A program made the translations under genes and the position numbers. Below, piece by piece: positions 20,662-25,776 of a DNA stretch of 40,217 bases. The stretch comes from Natrinema thermotolerans DSM 11552 (GTDB lineage Archaea > Halobacteriota > Halobacteria > Halobacteriales > Natrialbaceae), in NCBI GenBank assembly GCA_000337115.1, contig AOIR01000034.1:61025-101241 (forward strand). The letters run 5' to 3'. Every line of letters starts with the position of its first letter. Position 1 is the first letter of the stretch. The notes beneath the pieces were generated by a model that saw nothing but the letters and a program-made list of their open reading frames with translations, was not told the origin of the DNA and made no database searches.

Positions 20662-21327
20662 CTATCCGCTATTTTGCGATGTGTCCTCGTACTCGACCTG
20701 CGTCCCGTTCGCGACCGGTTGGAGGAGATACCGTTCGGTCTGACCGCGACGAACGGGTGTGAAGTCTCCCACGAAGGTCGTCGTCTGGTCCTCGCGGATC
20801 TCGAACCGGTGTTTGAACTGCAGTGGCGCATCCCCGGGCGTTCCGACGTCGGCCTCGCCCCCGTCCTCGAGGACGCCCTCGACGCCCGTCACGTCGAGCT
20901 GGAGGAACTCGTATTCTTGGGCGTCGAGTTCGCGTTCGTCGACTAGCTGCGTGTTCCCGTTTTGCAGTTTCACGAGGTCCGCCTCCTGCGGGTCGTCGAA
21001 CTCGTGGTACTCGCGCCCATCGCTTTCGTCGACATCGCCTTCATCCTGTTCTTCGACGGTCTCGTTCCCGTCTTGCTGCTCGGTAGTCTCGTTGTCCGTG
21101 GAGTCCGTGCCGTCGTCATCGGCGTCGTCGCCGCTCGGTTTGACCCAGATCCCCTGGATCGTGACGATGCATGACTCGAAGTCGGCGATGTCTCCCGGTT
21201 GGTCCGTGACCTGCGTTGCGAGCGTCCCGGTCGCCGCGTTCGCGCCGGTACAGCCCGCTAATCCGATCGATCCTGCCGTTGCGATACCTGCCGATTTGAG
21301 ATACGTCCGTCGATTGAGTTCTGTCAT
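20662..21327 (-). CDS. Tat-exported lipoprotein with DUF4382-like domain
   Basis: The 221-aa product begins MTELNRRTYLKSAGIATAG with the twin-arginine motif (NRRTYLK) and a lipobox LAGC (Cys26), so it should be exported folded by Tat and lipid-anchored outside the membrane. The mature part opens TGTLATQVTDQPGDIADFESC and IVTIQGIWVKP, the signature of the DUF4382 family (beta-sandwich, presumably carbohydrate- or protein-binding; function unknown). A Asp/Glu-rich insertion (about residues 68-100) interrupts it, and the rest is LQLDVTGVEGVLEDG to RRGQTERYLLQPVANGTQVE. A TATA-like GGATTAAGTG is at about 21423-21432, and phased T-tracts (21453-21474) lie directly upstream, a feature shared with the secreted-protein genes further on. 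Confidence 0.85.
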   Translation of the reverse strand: MTELNRRTYLKSAGIATAGSIGLAGCTGANAATGTLATQVTDQPGDIADFESCIVTIQGIWVKPSGDDADDDGTDSTDNETTEQQDGNETVEEQDEGDVDESDGREYHEFDDPQEADLVKLQNGNTQLVDERELDAQEYEFLQLDVTGVEGVLEDGGEADVGTPGDAPLQFKHRFEIREDQTTTFVGDFTPVRRGQTERYLLQPVANGTQVEYEDTSQNSG

Positions 21328-21828
21328 GGGTTTGAATTCGTGTGGTCCGCGTTCGACCGCCGTCCAGTTCCGTGCGTCAGTCGTTTCGTCCCGTTCATCG
21401 CAATTGTCCCTTCTCGGACAGTCACTTAATCCGGATAGTTGATGGCGACGAATTTCGCCGATTTGACCGCATTTACGCGGGTCTTCCGCCTCTCCACAAC
21501 TCGAGCGGCGTCGCCGTGTTCGCGCCGCGACGGTTCGTCGGAGCGCGATTCGTCGATCCCCCGACGGTCGGCCCCAGTCACAGCCATCGGGGTCGTCGAG
21601 ATGTCTCTGAGGTAGTAGTGTACGGACGCGGTCCCTGGCTCACAGCGCGCGTTCGAGACCGTCTCGATGGCGTCCTGTGGCTGCCCTCGTTCGGCAGGTG
21701 CGATTCGGTCGCGATGACGTCGGGACGTGTCTCGTCCCTCTATCCGACGGATTCGTCGGACGGCCTCGTCGCCCAGTGTACTGCTATTCACGGACAACTG
21801 GCTTCGTCGCGACTCGGTCAATACCGTC
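21328..21828. other. 501-bp gene-free interval holding the lipoprotein promoter
   Basis: No convincing gene is seen. The right-to-left promoter of the lipoprotein occupies 21423-21475: TATA-like GGATTAAGTG preceded by T-tracts starting at 21453, 21462 and 21472. A perfect stem TCCGACG-GATT-CGTCGGA lies at 21743-21760, about 70 bp beyond the stop of the next gene (21829), and could be its terminator. The remainder looks like ordinary GC-rich spacer. Confidence 0.45.
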
Positions 21829-22530
21829 TCAGCCGTCACTCGCCGCGCCGTCGGTTCCAGTGTCACCGTCCGCGCGCTCGTCGGACTGCGACTCGCCGTT
21901 TCCGTCGTTCGATCCGTCGGGAGTCGGATCCGCGTTCGTCGATCGGCCAACGTCGTCGCCGGCGATCGAGCGAGCGGTCTCCGCCGTCTCGGGGCCGCCG
22001 AGTTCGCCCGCGCGGTCCCGGAGCGTCCGGATCGCCTCGGCGTCGACCCCGCTGTCGGCGAGCGCTCGGTCGGGGACCTCGCTCGCGGCGGTTTCGGCCG
22101 CGGCGGCCCGGCGCTCGATCCCGCGCATCTCCGCGACGGCCGTCGCGACTTCCGCCCGGTAACGGCCCTCGCTGATCTCGCCAGTCTCACGGGATTCGTT
22201 CAGGGTCGCGAGGCGGTCCTCGAGTTCCGCCAGTCGCTGCCGGCTCTCGTTGACTTCCGTGGCGATGACGGCCGCTTTCGTCTCGTTCGTCTCGGCGCTG
22301 GCGAACCGCACGCCGAAGGCCCGCTCCGAGACGTCGCCCTCGAGTTCGGCGTTCTGGACGCCGACGGCCGCGGCGAACTGTTCACCGGGGGCGATCGAGT
22401 CGTTGCCTTCCTCGTCGGCGGTCCCGTCCTGAGCGCCGCCGTTCGGGGCGACGGTCGCCGCGGCCAGCGGGACCGCGACCGCTGCGACGAGCAGGACCGC
22501 GACGAGCGTGATCGATGTGGGTCGGTTCAT
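21829..22530 (-). CDS. Secreted helical haloarchaeal protein (DUF7096-like)
   Basis: The 233-aa product has a Sec-type signal peptide (NRPTSITLVAVLLVAAVAVPLAAA). After it come a short strand region with PGEQFAAAVGVQNAELEGDVSERAFGVRFA and a long charged helical stretch (ETNETKAAVIATEVNESRQRLAELEDRLATLNESRETGEISEGRYRAEVATAVAEM pattern) with clear coiled-coil heptads. The C-terminus is an acidic, Ser/Asp/Gly low-complexity tail of about 40 residues. I recall this layout as a conserved haloarchaeal secreted family, often beside a membrane helix-turn-helix protein as here, but the family number is from memory. It lies 150 bp downstream of that gene on the same strand. Confidence 0.72.
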   Translation of the reverse strand: MNRPTSITLVAVLLVAAVAVPLAAATVAPNGGAQDGTADEEGNDSIAPGEQFAAAVGVQNAELEGDVSERAFGVRFASAETNETKAAVIATEVNESRQRLAELEDRLATLNESRETGEISEGRYRAEVATAVAEMRGIERRAAAAETAASEVPDRALADSGVDAEAIRTLRDRAGELGGPETAETARSIAGDDVGRSTNADPTPDGSNDGNGESQSDERADGDTGTDGAASDG

Positions 22531-22588
22531 TGGTGGTGGGTGTCGCTCGATCGATACCAGGCGGGGCGAGGACTTGGGGTCATCGACG

Positions 22589-22646
22589 GTTAACGCCGTT
22601 TAACGCTGTTTTCGATCCGCTCCCGTCCGGCGATTTCGACGGTTTT
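22589..22646 (-). promoter_or_regulatory. T-tract repeats upstream of the secreted helical protein gene
   Basis: On the plus strand GGTTAACGCC, GTTTAACGCT and GTTTTCG stand at 22588-22614 in a 9-10 bp rhythm. TTT runs at 22634 and 22643 follow. TTAA-type sequence here could itself be the promoter core. The resemblance to the arrays at 24271-24283 and 25836-25890 is moderate. Confidence 0.35.
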
Positions 22647-22680
22647 CGCTCCGCATCCGTCTCGGTCGGCCCGACGCGAG

Positions 22681-23859
22681 TCATTCGTCCTCATCTGCCG
22701 AGTCCGGGACGATTCCGTCGTCGACCTCGGGCAGCGAGAGGACGTTCTCGCGGCCGAGCCGGAACGACTCGAGCTTGCCGTCCTCGCGGAGCCCGCTGAC
22801 GACCTTGCTGGTCTTTGCGTCGGTCCAGTCCAGTTCCTCGACGACCGCCTGCTGTTTCATCCGGCCGCCCCGCTCTTTGACCAGCCGAAGGACCTGTTCC
22901 TCGTTGCTCAGCAGTTCCGTGTCGACCCCCGCGGCCGCGGCGTCGCTTGCCGGGTCGGACGTGCCCGCCGGACTCGAGTCGGCGGCCGATGCGGTCTCGG
23001 CAGCCGATCCGGATGCAGACTCGGTGTCGGTACCGGACGCGGACCCGCCCCCGGAGCCGGCCGCAGGGGTCCCGTCGCCGTCGTCGGGCCGATCCGCCGA
23101 CGGCTTGCGGGTCCGGTACCACCACGCGCCGGCGGCTCCGAGGCCGAGCAGGACGACCACCCCGCCCGCGATCAGCAGCGGACTCGAGCCGGTCGCGCCG
23201 CCCGCGGCGGTGACGACGATGCGGGGTTCGTCGTCGACGAAGTCGGTGTCGTCGCCCCGCCAGATCACGGCCCGCTCGCGCTCGTCGTCCGGGTCGGGCG
23301 CGACCGACGTTCGCTCGTAGCCCTCGGGCCACTCGATCAGCAGTCGGGTCCCGTCGTCGAGGTAGAGTCCCGCGACGGCGTCGCCGGCCCGGAGCCGGTC
23401 GCCATCGACGGCGGCGAACCCGTCCCAGCGGAACGTGTACCTGACGACGCCGTACTCGCGGGCGAACGACTGGCGCTCGGTCTCGACGGAGAAGTCGGTG
23501 GCGGCCATCTCCCGCCCGGTCGCGTTGCTCGCCGTCGCGACCGTCCCGTTCATCCGCTCGGCGAACCGCGCCGTGTGGTTTGCCGGATCTTCCCGGATAT
23601 CGTCGCGTAACGACTCGAACGCCGCCTCGCTCTCGTTGTCGTCGAGTCGGATCCAGAACTCGAGGGTCCAGTCGGCGCTGCCGTCGGCCCGGAGCGCGAC
23701 GTCCATCCGGACCTCGTCGGCGTCGATCCCGTCCTGCTGGAGGGTAAACGGCTCCGACTGGGCCCCTCCCGTCGCCACCGTTCCGGTCGCTGCAATGGGA
23801 CCGGCTGCGACGAGTAGTAGCGCGACGACCGCGACCGTCACGGCGGCGCGACCGTTCAT
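22681..23859 (-). CDS. Membrane-anchored helix-turn-helix protein (DUF7345/DUF7343-like)
   Basis: The 392-aa protein has a signal-like hydrophobic N-terminus (residues 5-25) and an extracytoplasmic beta-rich sensor region (about 35-220: DEVRMDVALRADGSADWTLEFWIRLDD to DEPRIVVTAAGG). One membrane helix follows at 227-248, then a flexible Ser/Gly/Asp linker (252-315) and a cytoplasmic winged-helix domain (318-377: SNEEQVLRLVKERGGRMKQ, then VVEELDWTDAKTSKVVSGLREDG). The topology suggests direct one-component signalling from outside the cell to DNA. The minus-strand TATA TTTTAAG (23884-23890) implies a nearly leaderless start. Neighbouring secreted and membrane genes on the same strand are plausible targets. 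Confidence 0.82.
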   Translation of the reverse strand: MNGRAAVTVAVVALLLVAAGPIAATGTVATGGAQSEPFTLQQDGIDADEVRMDVALRADGSADWTLEFWIRLDDNESEAAFESLRDDIREDPANHTARFAERMNGTVATASNATGREMAATDFSVETERQSFAREYGVVRYTFRWDGFAAVDGDRLRAGDAVAGLYLDDGTRLLIEWPEGYERTSVAPDPDDERERAVIWRGDDTDFVDDEPRIVVTAAGGATGSSPLLIAGGVVVLLGLGAAGAWWYRTRKPSADRPDDGDGTPAAGSGGGSASGTDTESASGSAAETASAADSSPAGTSDPASDAAAAGVDTELLSNEEQVLRLVKERGGRMKQQAVVEELDWTDAKTSKVVSGLREDGKLESFRLGRENVLSLPEVDDGIVPDSADEDE

Positions 23860-23970
23860 ACGGGTCGGTACTTCCCAGCTCGCTTAAAACACACGGATGT
23901 CGGAAAACGGAACCTCACCCGCTAAAACGGGATTCCGTACCGGATTCGACGAGAACGTATTGGGCGACTA

Positions 23971-24216
23971 TCACTCGCCGTTACCGTTCGGGATGGCCGC
24001 GCCATTACCGGGCGTGACGCTCCGGATGGCCTCGCCGACGGCCTCGAGGGCACCGCCGAGGACGTCGGTGATCGTTTCGAGGAGGTCGGAGACGAAGTCC
24101 GGAACCCGATCGGGCAGGTCACTCGGCGGGCCGTCCGCGGGCTGTGCCGCCGCGGCACCGGTCGCGCCGAGGAGGAGTGTCAGTGCAACCGCGATCGTGA
24201 GTATCGGTCGTTGCAT
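23971..24216 (-). CDS. Small secreted protein, paralogue of the gene at 25.3 kb
   Basis: The 81-aa product has a signal peptide (QRPILTIAVALTLLLGATGAAAA), so the mature part is only about 57 residues: DLPDRVPDFVSDLLETITDV, then LGGALEAVGEAIRSVTPGNG. This amphipathic segment aligns with DLPEQVPDHVSAIHDRISAF and LSGDLETSLGDAISEVTP of the gene at 25255-25776, so the two are paralogues. The other copy adds a long acidic tail. The ATG at 24216 gives a typical signal peptide. Upstream T-tracts at 24271 and 24281 resemble those of the sister gene. Function unknown; I see no known family. Confidence 0.7.
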   Translation of the reverse strand: MQRPILTIAVALTLLLGATGAAAAQPADGPPSDLPDRVPDFVSDLLETITDVLGGALEAVGEAIRSVTPGNGAAIPNGNGE

Positions 24217-24270
24217 CACGGCTCGAGCGTGGCGGCTCACCCCTATCAACCGGGCAGTCGGTGACCGCGA

Positions 24271-24283
24271 TTTGCGCCGATTT
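24271..24283 (-). promoter_or_regulatory. Paired T-tracts with CGCCGATTTGA upstream of small secreted protein
   Basis: The plus strand reads GCGATTTGCGCCGATTTGAG, with TTT runs starting at 24271 and 24281. The 11-mer CGCCGATTTGA is repeated exactly at 21456-21466 in the promoter region of the Tat lipoprotein. A shared regulator site is inferred. Confidence 0.4.
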
Positions 24284-24343
24284 GAGCCGGATGTCGCCAC
24301 CGTCGGCTGGGTATTGATCGCCGTCGGCCGATGGCAGGGCCGC

Positions 24344-24694
24344 TTACGCCCCCGGGACGCCGAACGCGCCGACGCCGAGTCGGAAGACGGCGTTGAGGAC
24401 GAACAGGATCGCGATCGCGGCGAGCCACGCGATGAACCCGATGGCCGCGGCCGCCCCCCAGCCGCCGGGGTAGCGCCAGTTGATCACCCAGACCCAGGCG
24501 ATCAGGGCGAGGATCGGGCCAAACAGGGGGATCCACGCGGTCAGCCCCCACGCGAACCCGCCGAGGATCGCCGTGACGAACGCGTGTGAGTAGTCGTCCA
24601 CGTCGGCGACGACCCGCGCGCTGACGTAGATCGCCAGCCCGCCGACTACCAGTGCGACCAGAAACGCGACGAACGAGCCGACGATGGAAACCAT
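24344..24694 (-). CDS. Four-helix membrane protein, paralogue of the gene at 24.9 kb
   Basis: The 116-aa product has four predicted membrane helices (about 6-28, 38-56, 57-72 and 80-102). It carries VADVDDYSHAFVTAILGGFAWG and WVWVINWRYPGGW and ends GAFGVPGA. The pattern D-Y-x-H-A-x-V-T-A and P-L-x-G-x-x-L-A-x-x-A-W-V-x-V-x-x-W-R-Y is repeated in the neighbour at 24856-25230, which is thus a duplicate. Neither pore nor catalytic motif is obvious; the conserved Asp-Tyr-His and Trp-Arg-Tyr sites could matter. A minus-strand GTATTGAAAG (about 24708-24717) may be the TATA. Function unknown. Confidence 0.75.
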   Translation of the reverse strand: MVSIVGSFVAFLVALVVGGLAIYVSARVVADVDDYSHAFVTAILGGFAWGLTAWIPLFGPILALIAWVWVINWRYPGGWGAAAAIGFIAWLAAIAILFVLNAVFRLGVGAFGVPGA

Positions 24695-24855
24695 ACGAAC
24701 CGGTACGCTTTCAATACACTTGATACCTCCCTCGCGATAACCGCCCGTGTGAGGCCGTCGCCGCCGGGGAGACGGTCGTGTTCGGAAGAAGCGTCAGCGG
24801 GGTGGTGGGGGATACGTCAGCGGGACAGGTACGGAACCGTCAGCGGGAGCGCGAT

Positions 24856-25230
24856 TCAGGTGCCCGGCACGCCGAGTGCCGACACCGAGCCGATACCGAC
24901 CAGCTCGAGGGCCGCGAGGACGACTACGGCGGCCGCCCAGGCGGCGACGCCGACCCCGGCCGACCGGAGCCAGCCGAGGTCGTAGCGCCACTTGACGACC
25001 GCGACCCAGGCGACGATCGCCAGCAGGCCGCCGACCAGCGGCACCGACTCGAGGACCGCCCAGGCGAGGGCGGCCAGTAGCGCGGTCACCACCGCGTGGC
25101 CGTAGTCGCGGGTCTCGGCGACGACGTAGGTGCCGGCCTGGAGGGCCGCGCCGCCGACCAGCAGGCTCACGGCGAACGCCAGCAGTCGGTCCTCGAGTCC
25201 GATCGGTGCCGGCTGTGCGAATGGGGGCAT
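24856..25230 (-). CDS. Four-helix membrane protein, duplicate of the gene at 24.3 kb
   Basis: The 124-aa product starts MPPFAQPAPIGLEDRLLAFA and has four hydrophobic segments. It carries YVVAETRDYGHAVVTALLAALAWAV and VVKWRYDLGW and ends SALGVPGT. It shares the DYxHAxVTAxLxxxAW, PLxGxxLA and AWVxVxxWRY patterns with the neighbouring 116-aa protein. The stop of the upstream secreted gene is at 25255 and this ATG at 25230, so the two form a probable operon with 24 bp between them. Homologues with a WRYPxGW-like motif are widespread haloarchaeal hypotheticals as far as I recall; no function is assigned. Confidence 0.75.
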   Translation of the reverse strand: MPPFAQPAPIGLEDRLLAFAVSLLVGGAALQAGTYVVAETRDYGHAVVTALLAALAWAVLESVPLVGGLLAIVAWVAVVKWRYDLGWLRSAGVGVAAWAAAVVVLAALELVGIGSVSALGVPGT

Positions 25231-25254
25231 AGGTGTGTAGCGTTACCGGGTGGT

Positions 25255-25776
25255 CTATTCGTCGGTTTCGTCGTCAGCGTCGTTGTCCTCGTCGGCGGTG
25301 TCGCCAGCGTTGCTCTCGTCTGACTGTTCGTCGTCAGCGTCGTTGTCCTCGTCGGTGGTGTCGCCGGCGTCGCTCTCGTCGGAGTCGTCACCGCTCTCGG
25401 TCGCGTCATCTTCGTCGGCAGCGTCCTCGTCGTCCGGCGTGACCTCACTGATCGCATCGCCCAGCGAGGTCTCGAGGTCGCCGCTCAGGAACGCCGAGAT
25501 CCGGTCGTGGATCGCGGAGACGTGGTCGGGAACCTGTTCAGGGAGGTCGACGGCGGGCCCCTGCCCGTTCCGGTCATCAGCGTCGGCGGCTCCGTTCTCG
25601 CTGCCGTTGTCGTGGTCGTCCGCGGATCCTGCGCGGTCGTTCGCAGGGTGGTCGTCGGCAGTACTGTCTGCGCCCGTGTCCACGGACACGGGAGCGGAGC
25701 CGGGTGCCGCGGCGGCGAACCCGGTGGCTGCGATCAATGCGGCGAGTGCGACTGCGATGATGGTCGTTCGGTTCAT
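25255..25776 (-). CDS. Secreted protein with acidic repeat tail, paralogue of the 24.0-kb gene
   Basis: The 173-aa product has a signal peptide (NRTTIIAVALAALIAATGFAAAA), an acidic Asp/His/Asn-rich linker, then the conserved segment DLPEQVPDHVSAIHDRISAF LSGDLETSLGDAISEVTP that matches the 81-aa protein downstream. The tail is an Asp/Glu/Ser run in which a 20-residue unit (SDESDAGDTTDEDNDADDEQ) is repeated. A longer start, MRAM, at 25785 adds three residues; either is possible. The tail is far more acidic than the haloarchaeal average and could bind cations or stay extended outside the cell. The next gene, a four-helix membrane protein, starts 24 bp downstream. An unusual phased T-tract array lies upstream. 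Confidence 0.72.
   Translation of the reverse strand: MNRTTIIAVALAALIAATGFAAAAPGSAPVSVDTGADSTADDHPANDRAGSADDHDNGSENGAADADDRNGQGPAVDLPEQVPDHVSAIHDRISAFLSGDLETSLGDAISEVTPDDEDAADEDDATESGDDSDESDAGDTTDEDNDADDEQSDESNAGDTADEDNDADDETDE
25268..25380 (+). repeat. 60-bp direct tandem repeat encoding the acidic tail
   Basis: Bases 25268-25320 and 25328-25380 are 53-base blocks exactly 60 bp apart, identical at 50 of 53 positions. They encode the 20-residue acidic unit twice. The differences are C/T, A/G and T/C, which suggests a fairly recent duplication. Confidence 0.85.

Follow-up and report, generated by a model that had tools for sequence, protein, structure and literature searches.

On the minus strand of a 40,217-nucleotide stretch of the Natrinema thermotolerans DSM 11552 genome (contig AOIR01000034.1, positions 61,025 to 101,241; hereafter the window), six genes encode small exported proteins, four-helix membrane proteins and a protein that combines a membrane helix with a helix-turn-helix, raising the question of whether they form one system and what would hold it together. 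We name them, in transcriptional order, P1 (25255-25776), P2 (24856-25230), P3 (24344-24694), P4 (23971-24216), P5 (22681-23859) and P6 (21829-22530). All six open reading frames proposed by the first-pass annotation are present and are picked by a gene caller based on codon usage, and comparison with three Natrinema orthologues indicates purifying selection on each (ratio of nonsynonymous to synonymous substitution rates 0.18-0.54). The new observation is that direct repeats spaced ~10 bp apart stand at the promoters of genes for exported proteins (P1, P4, P6 and a unit composed of a gene remnant, P1b, and a DUF4382 gene), whereas the promoters of P5 and of the four-helix genes have none. We consider it reasonably probable that P5 is a membrane-tethered one-component regulator that controls a small regulon of exported proteins through these one-face direct-repeat arrays, most likely by activation.

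P5 had been described as a membrane-anchored helix-turn-helix protein, and domain searches agree. The protein starts with a signal peptide and matches two Pfam families, DUF7345 (residues 54-181; E 7e-32, 110.8 bits against a curated cut-off of 27.5) and, at its C-terminus, the DUF7343 winged helix (residues 316-377; E 3e-28, 98.1 bits against 27.6), with a single membrane helix (residues 227-250) between them. An AlphaFold2 model contains an external alpha/beta domain (49-218), the membrane helix, a disordered linker and, at the C-terminus, a winged helix (313-378), the predicted local distance difference test score (pLDDT) being ~95 for both the sensor domain and the winged helix; in structure matching of the model the latter resembles MarR-type domains. 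P5 has the layout of a transmembrane one-component regulator, with DNA-binding domain and membrane helix in a single protein. For the DUF7345 domain the top structure matches were FMO proteins and LppM, which were not trusted as relatives (root-mean-square deviation at least 7.7 Å), and a sequence-profile search of the PDB, one of the fold searches made for this domain and for the four-helix protein, returned no relative. CsmR and the Haloferax motility factors HVO_1357/HVO_2248 were also set aside as possible relatives, their architectures being different.

The repeats were found at four places, all on the minus strand. Upstream of P1 (25824-25897) lie six A-tracts at a mean spacing of ~10.3 bp (11, 9.5, 11.5, 9.5 and 10.5 bp), which form the sole array of at least three AAA units in the window (0.1 in shuffled sequence). 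Two CAAATCG units 10 bp apart precede P4 (24267-24287), GAAAAC, TTAAAC and TTAACC units ~10 bp apart precede P6 (22588-22652; G000:C34:83614-83676), and TAAAT-CAAAT-GAAAT at 9-10 bp precedes the P1b remnant and the DUF4382 gene (21449-21477). When the P1 promoters of 23 species were aligned, the A-tracts were the main invariant blocks and the spacers varied. In 24 of 25 Natrinema genomes a sequence-model scan gave a single strong genome-wide match, which invariably lay at P1; the remaining genome, G022, had no strong array match, and no P1-P6 locus was found in it either. Weak matches to the same model were concentrated at the locus as well, with 9 of 50 falling within the P1-P6 cluster against 0.23 expected. 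A genome-wide regulon in Natrinema sought with CGAAAACGNCGNTNAA, allowing one mismatch, was rejected: there were 20 matches against 1 control match, and array sites occurred only at P1 and P6, most of the others being coding.

Gene order was compared at two depths. All 27 loci in the genus Natrinema follow the fixed order P1-P2-(DUF4382)-(P3-P4)-P5-P6; P3 and P4, missing from several of them, are dispensable, while P1, P5 and P6 remain in all. Five of these loci (L029, L030, L033, L039 and L040) carry a second DUF4382 gene between P2 and P3. The haloarchaea-wide set comprised the best 80 of 226 P5 relatives and is biased towards P5 orthologues because only these were taken; within it, P6 lies in the locus in 78 of 80 cases, on the opposite strand in three. 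The pair was also detected together in genomes of many other families. The arrangement varies: P6 comes ahead of P5 in Halorubrum-type loci, some loci have P6 followed by a DUF7345 gene that has no winged helix, and a gene of the exported family shared by P1 and P4 (see below) adjoins P5 in many Natrialbaceae and is divergent in Natronomonas-type loci. At the P5-P6 locus, four-helix genes are confined to Natrinema and a small number of its relatives within the Natrialbaceae. The expectation that gene set and order are kept across haloarchaea is borne out for gene order within Natrinema and order-wide for P5 plus P6, which are the shared nucleus of the locus, and does not extend to P3, P4 or the four-helix genes. 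In several families P5-P6 lies in an argG/LigT neighbourhood, which was taken to be incidental. In Halosimplex pelagicum (L171, 4032-9760) two P5-like/P6-like pairs follow each other, the second P5-like gene being weaker, and repeats precede both P6-like genes.

To compare promoters across haloarchaea, we counted phased pairs, defined as repeat units 9-11 bp apart within 170 bp upstream of a gene; the unit pattern was chosen after some of the counted promoters had been viewed, so that these counts are partly fitted, whereas the twelve-genome motif scan described below and the core promoters outside Natrinema concern loci that had not been inspected beforehand. Among Natrialbaceae, 66 phased pairs were found at P6 (0.6 expected) and 30 at genes of the P1/P4 core family (0.4 expected), compared with none at P5, none at four-helix genes and 2 in 139 other genes. 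In the other families P6 had 53 pairs (0.9 expected), distributed over 37 of 54 genes, compared with 1 in 56 for P5 and 3 in 378 other genes (3.0 expected). Core promoters outside Natrinema had strict pairs in 15 of 25 cases (22 pairs against 0.23 expected). The spectrum of unit spacings peaks at 10 and 20. Outside Natrialbaceae, the P6 unit is a tandem decamer of TTRATCCGG type, close to G-G-N-T-T-R-A-T-C-C-G-G, and stands just 5′ of a TATA-like box; this box often lies 14-16, 24-26 or 34-36 bp past the last unit and in many cases ~30-33 bp ahead of the start codon. The register between array and TATA-like box is statistically modest (R 0.66, kinship ignored). In the recognition helix of P5, residue 352 is lysine in all sampled Natrialbaceae and mostly glutamine elsewhere, parallel to the change of repeat unit and confounded by kinship.

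Scanning twelve genomes with TTRAWYCGNNTTRAWYCG, one mismatch allowed, predicted targets from the motif alone. The scan gave 35 matches against 3 control matches and marked four P6 promoters; at unlinked positions it also marked core genes (G060, G055 and G056) and DUF4382 genes (G040 and G056). Core and DUF4382 genes adjoin each other in several other genomes. In G033 and G057, which have no P6 orthologue, DUF4382 is present and no element was found at its promoter. With P6 orthologues defined by E<=1e-40, a threshold placed by eye at a clear gap, 67 of 116 genomes of the order had P6 and 52 had the core; 51 had both, 48 neither and one the core only (Fisher p 2e-17, uncorrected for kinship), this sole exception being a marginal match of 22.7 bits. 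The pattern of core with P6 holds inside families f1, f4, f5 and f12. A perfect decamer pair also precedes a 278-residue membrane protein without known family (L223, G047:C1:1698942), a possible further target.

According to the model that we favour, the DUF7345 domain of P5 would lie outside the cell, its single helix would span the membrane, and DNA would be bound at the membrane surface by the DUF7343 winged helix at the C-terminus. Several P5 heads may sit side by side on repeats one helical turn apart, and would thereby hold one face of the promoter against the membrane, just 5′ of the TATA-like box. P1, P4, P6, P1b and DUF4382 would most likely be activated, as suggested by the position of the element 5′ of TATA-like boxes, and P6 would most likely act outside the cell as a partner of P5 or a feedback inhibitor; since P6 is exported, adjoins P5 and is itself under the element, feedback via an external partner appears likely. 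Of the two proteins in the conserved pair, P5 alone is predicted to bind DNA. Binding of P5 to the repeats, activation over repression, the partner role of P6 and a surface condition as the signal are what we infer from these arrangements. The claim that the secreted proteins, the membrane proteins and the helix-turn-helix protein are one system survives for the regulator and the adjoining exported proteins, by virtue of gene order, shared element and co-occurrence, and not for the four-helix genes, which have no element. Of the roles suggested at the outset, envelope sensing is plausible, and nothing points to salt stress in particular. More broadly, we see an even chance that this is an undescribed, order-wide archaeal system, in which a tethered winged-helix regulator reads phased repeats in register with TATA and controls an exported set that includes its own external partner, giving feedback across the membrane.

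Several observations weigh against this model. Natrialbaceae and other families do not share one repeat unit (AAA(A/T)C, TTGAACGG in the former, TTRATCCGG in the latter); no strict pair was found in 17 of 54 P6 promoters outside Natrialbaceae or in 10 of 25 core promoters outside Natrinema; and other genes in these latter core loci had pairs in 8 of 100 cases against 0.83 expected, which shared divergent intergenic regions (L240) explain only in part. P5 has no element at its own promoter, and this genome holds nine DUF7343 matches above the cut-off, so that another binder is possible. The repeats could accordingly be the operator of another factor, such as a soluble DUF7343 protein or other winged-helix paralogue, with P5-P6 merely regulated neighbours or co-inherited; genes bearing a helix-turn-helix do adjoin four-helix paralogues elsewhere. 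However, the arrays track the P5-P6 pair, being missing both from G022 and from DUF4382 in the two P6-less genomes, and the locus has no other conserved regulator, which leaves this explanation possible but doubtful.

If P5 does bind the repeats, it might instead act as a repressor of the exported genes that a surface signal would release. Repression is common among MarR-like winged helices, and sequence does not reveal the sign of regulation; position 5′ of TATA suggests activation without proving it. Yet the repeats precede the TATA-like box at the usual site of archaeal activators rather than covering it or the start, and we think repression unlikely. The constant A-tracts, variable spacers and ~10.3-bp spacing in Natrinema would also suit an architectural role, with DNA bending or the positioning of archaeal histones or nucleoid proteins and no dedicated regulator. 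This is very unlikely given that the unit outside Natrialbaceae is a sequence-specific decamer rather than an A-tract, and that the element accompanies only a handful of functionally linked genes and goes with the presence of P6. The small exported proteins adjoining a four-helix membrane protein could finally be read as a secreted, halocin-like antimicrobial with its immunity protein, duplicated beside an unrelated regulator; but the four-helix family is mostly stand-alone, and the exported family exists without four-helix genes and tracks P5-P6 in its presence, making this reading highly improbable.

The proposed regulation by P5 recalls ToxR, TcpP and CadC, in which a cytoplasmic DNA-binding winged helix, one membrane helix and an external sensor are likewise joined in a single polypeptide. 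The ToxR box consists of direct repeats one turn apart, TNAAA-N5-TNAAA (PMC8517210); the ~10-bp direct repeats at the conserved promoters here are similar, with P5 as their predicted binder, and one-turn repeats would present one DNA face, as a tethered row of heads would need. A second membrane protein, ToxS, acts together with ToxR (PMC8359183); P6, as the conserved neighbour of P5, would be a candidate for a comparable role. The two systems differ in that the winged helix of the ToxR family is N-terminal and OmpR-type, whereas that of P5 is C-terminal and MarR-like (DUF7343), with no Trans_reg_C match in P5; the exported domain is DUF7345, the putative partner P6 is probably unrelated, the arrays have up to six units and the promoters are of the archaeal TATA type. 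The nearest described archaeal case is ArnR/ArnR1 of Sulfolobus acidocaldarius, membrane-bound one-component regulators that control surface structures; in ArnR the helix-turn-helix is N-terminal, HAMP is present and the C-terminal part holds two membrane helices, and its sites are inverted repeats, TCGAC-N5-GTCGA (PMC6396743). P5 has the reverse layout and direct rather than inverted repeats.

Transmembrane transcription regulators are known as a class, and a survey of those of bacteria and archaea, defined by a DNA-binding domain and a membrane helix in one protein, does not name haloarchaea in its text (PMC10269533). The literature searched contained no mention of DUF7343, DUF7345 or DUF7096 and no description of a P5-type architecture, its operator or its target set, all of which are apparently undescribed. 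Little is understood of how haloarchaea sense surface conditions and relay them to their genes, and an operator has been proposed for only a few membrane-bound regulators of archaea. GvpE, a haloarchaeal activator, uses paired TGAA-type half-sites near the transcription factor B recognition element and TATA box, which resemble the arrays described here, but it is a soluble protein similar to basic leucine zippers, with ~12-bp spacing and a different gene set. In the CpxP/Spy feedback of bacterial envelope stress, a regulator gene likewise adjoins the gene of an exported helical protein that is among its targets, an arrangement that points to feedback; that is a two-component system, unlike P5, and the likeness is one of layout. 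The proposed circuit, with its regulator, partner, operator and few targets, is met again in many genera of haloarchaea, tractable Haloferax species among them, making the model directly testable, and would give DUF7345, DUF7343, the DUF7096-like proteins, DUF4382 and an unnamed exported family a role in one circuit.

Among the exported proteins, P1 and P4 are related, as had been proposed (50% over 42 residues, pairwise E 3e-9), and have in common a 43-residue motif, here termed the core, GPPxDLPEQVPDFV..IH..I..FL.G....LG...S. P1 (core family A9) carries it as DLPEQVPDHV followed by an acidic tail, and the short P4 is of the type that adjoins P5 in other Natrialbaceae. P6 is an exported helical protein and conserved P5 partner that resembles DUF7096 (21 bits, below the 27-bit curated cut-off; 26.6 bits for the L099 orthologue). 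P1, P4, P5 and P6 have N-terminal hydrophobic, Sec-like signals, judged by eye, and no cysteine. The DUF4382 gene (20662-21327, minus strand), a recurrent member of the set, encodes an exported protein of twin-arginine/lipobox type; the DUF4382 protein HVO_1030 of Haloferax volcanii was detected as an N-glycosylated exported lipoprotein, so that DUF4382, one of the proposed target families, is a real surface protein. Ahead of it lies P1b (21328-21398, minus strand), what is left of the 5′ end of another, third gene for an exported protein, which shares ATGAACGGGACGAAACG with the intact P1b start; the gene is intact in L028, L039 and L040, and in the window its surviving promoter element now faces DUF4382.

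P2, which begins 24 bp 3′ of P1, and P3 are also related to each other (44% over 114 residues, E 2e-23), as the first-pass annotation had noted, but its proposal that a secreted-plus-membrane module was duplicated is contradicted by gene order and by the P2/P3 tree. The order along the cluster is secreted-membrane-membrane-secreted, not secreted-membrane twice. In the tree, P3 falls among stand-alone orthologues of many other families and apart from P2 (support 92/96, slightly short of the strict threshold); P2 sits on its own long, lineage-specific branch, indicating that the pair was brought together and not duplicated in place. P3 represents an old family whose genes mostly stand alone and for which Pfam has no model. 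None of P1-P4 matched a Pfam family above cut-off, an NCBIfam search of the P2/P3 family gave no match, and 33 members of that family shared no Pfam family. The predicted P3 model has four helices (pLDDT 82) and no PDB match at E<=0.001. In five Natrialbaceae loci (L053, L065, L074, L075 and L078) other four-helix paralogues stand next to short genes for DUF7343 winged helices and may form a parallel pairing with them. In L021 (G000:C53, 7297-10010) a KaiC-type ATPase gene and an Amphi-Trp gene are followed by a four-helix paralogue and then by a universal stress protein gene, and neighbourhoods with the same gene sizes occur in L077 and L062.

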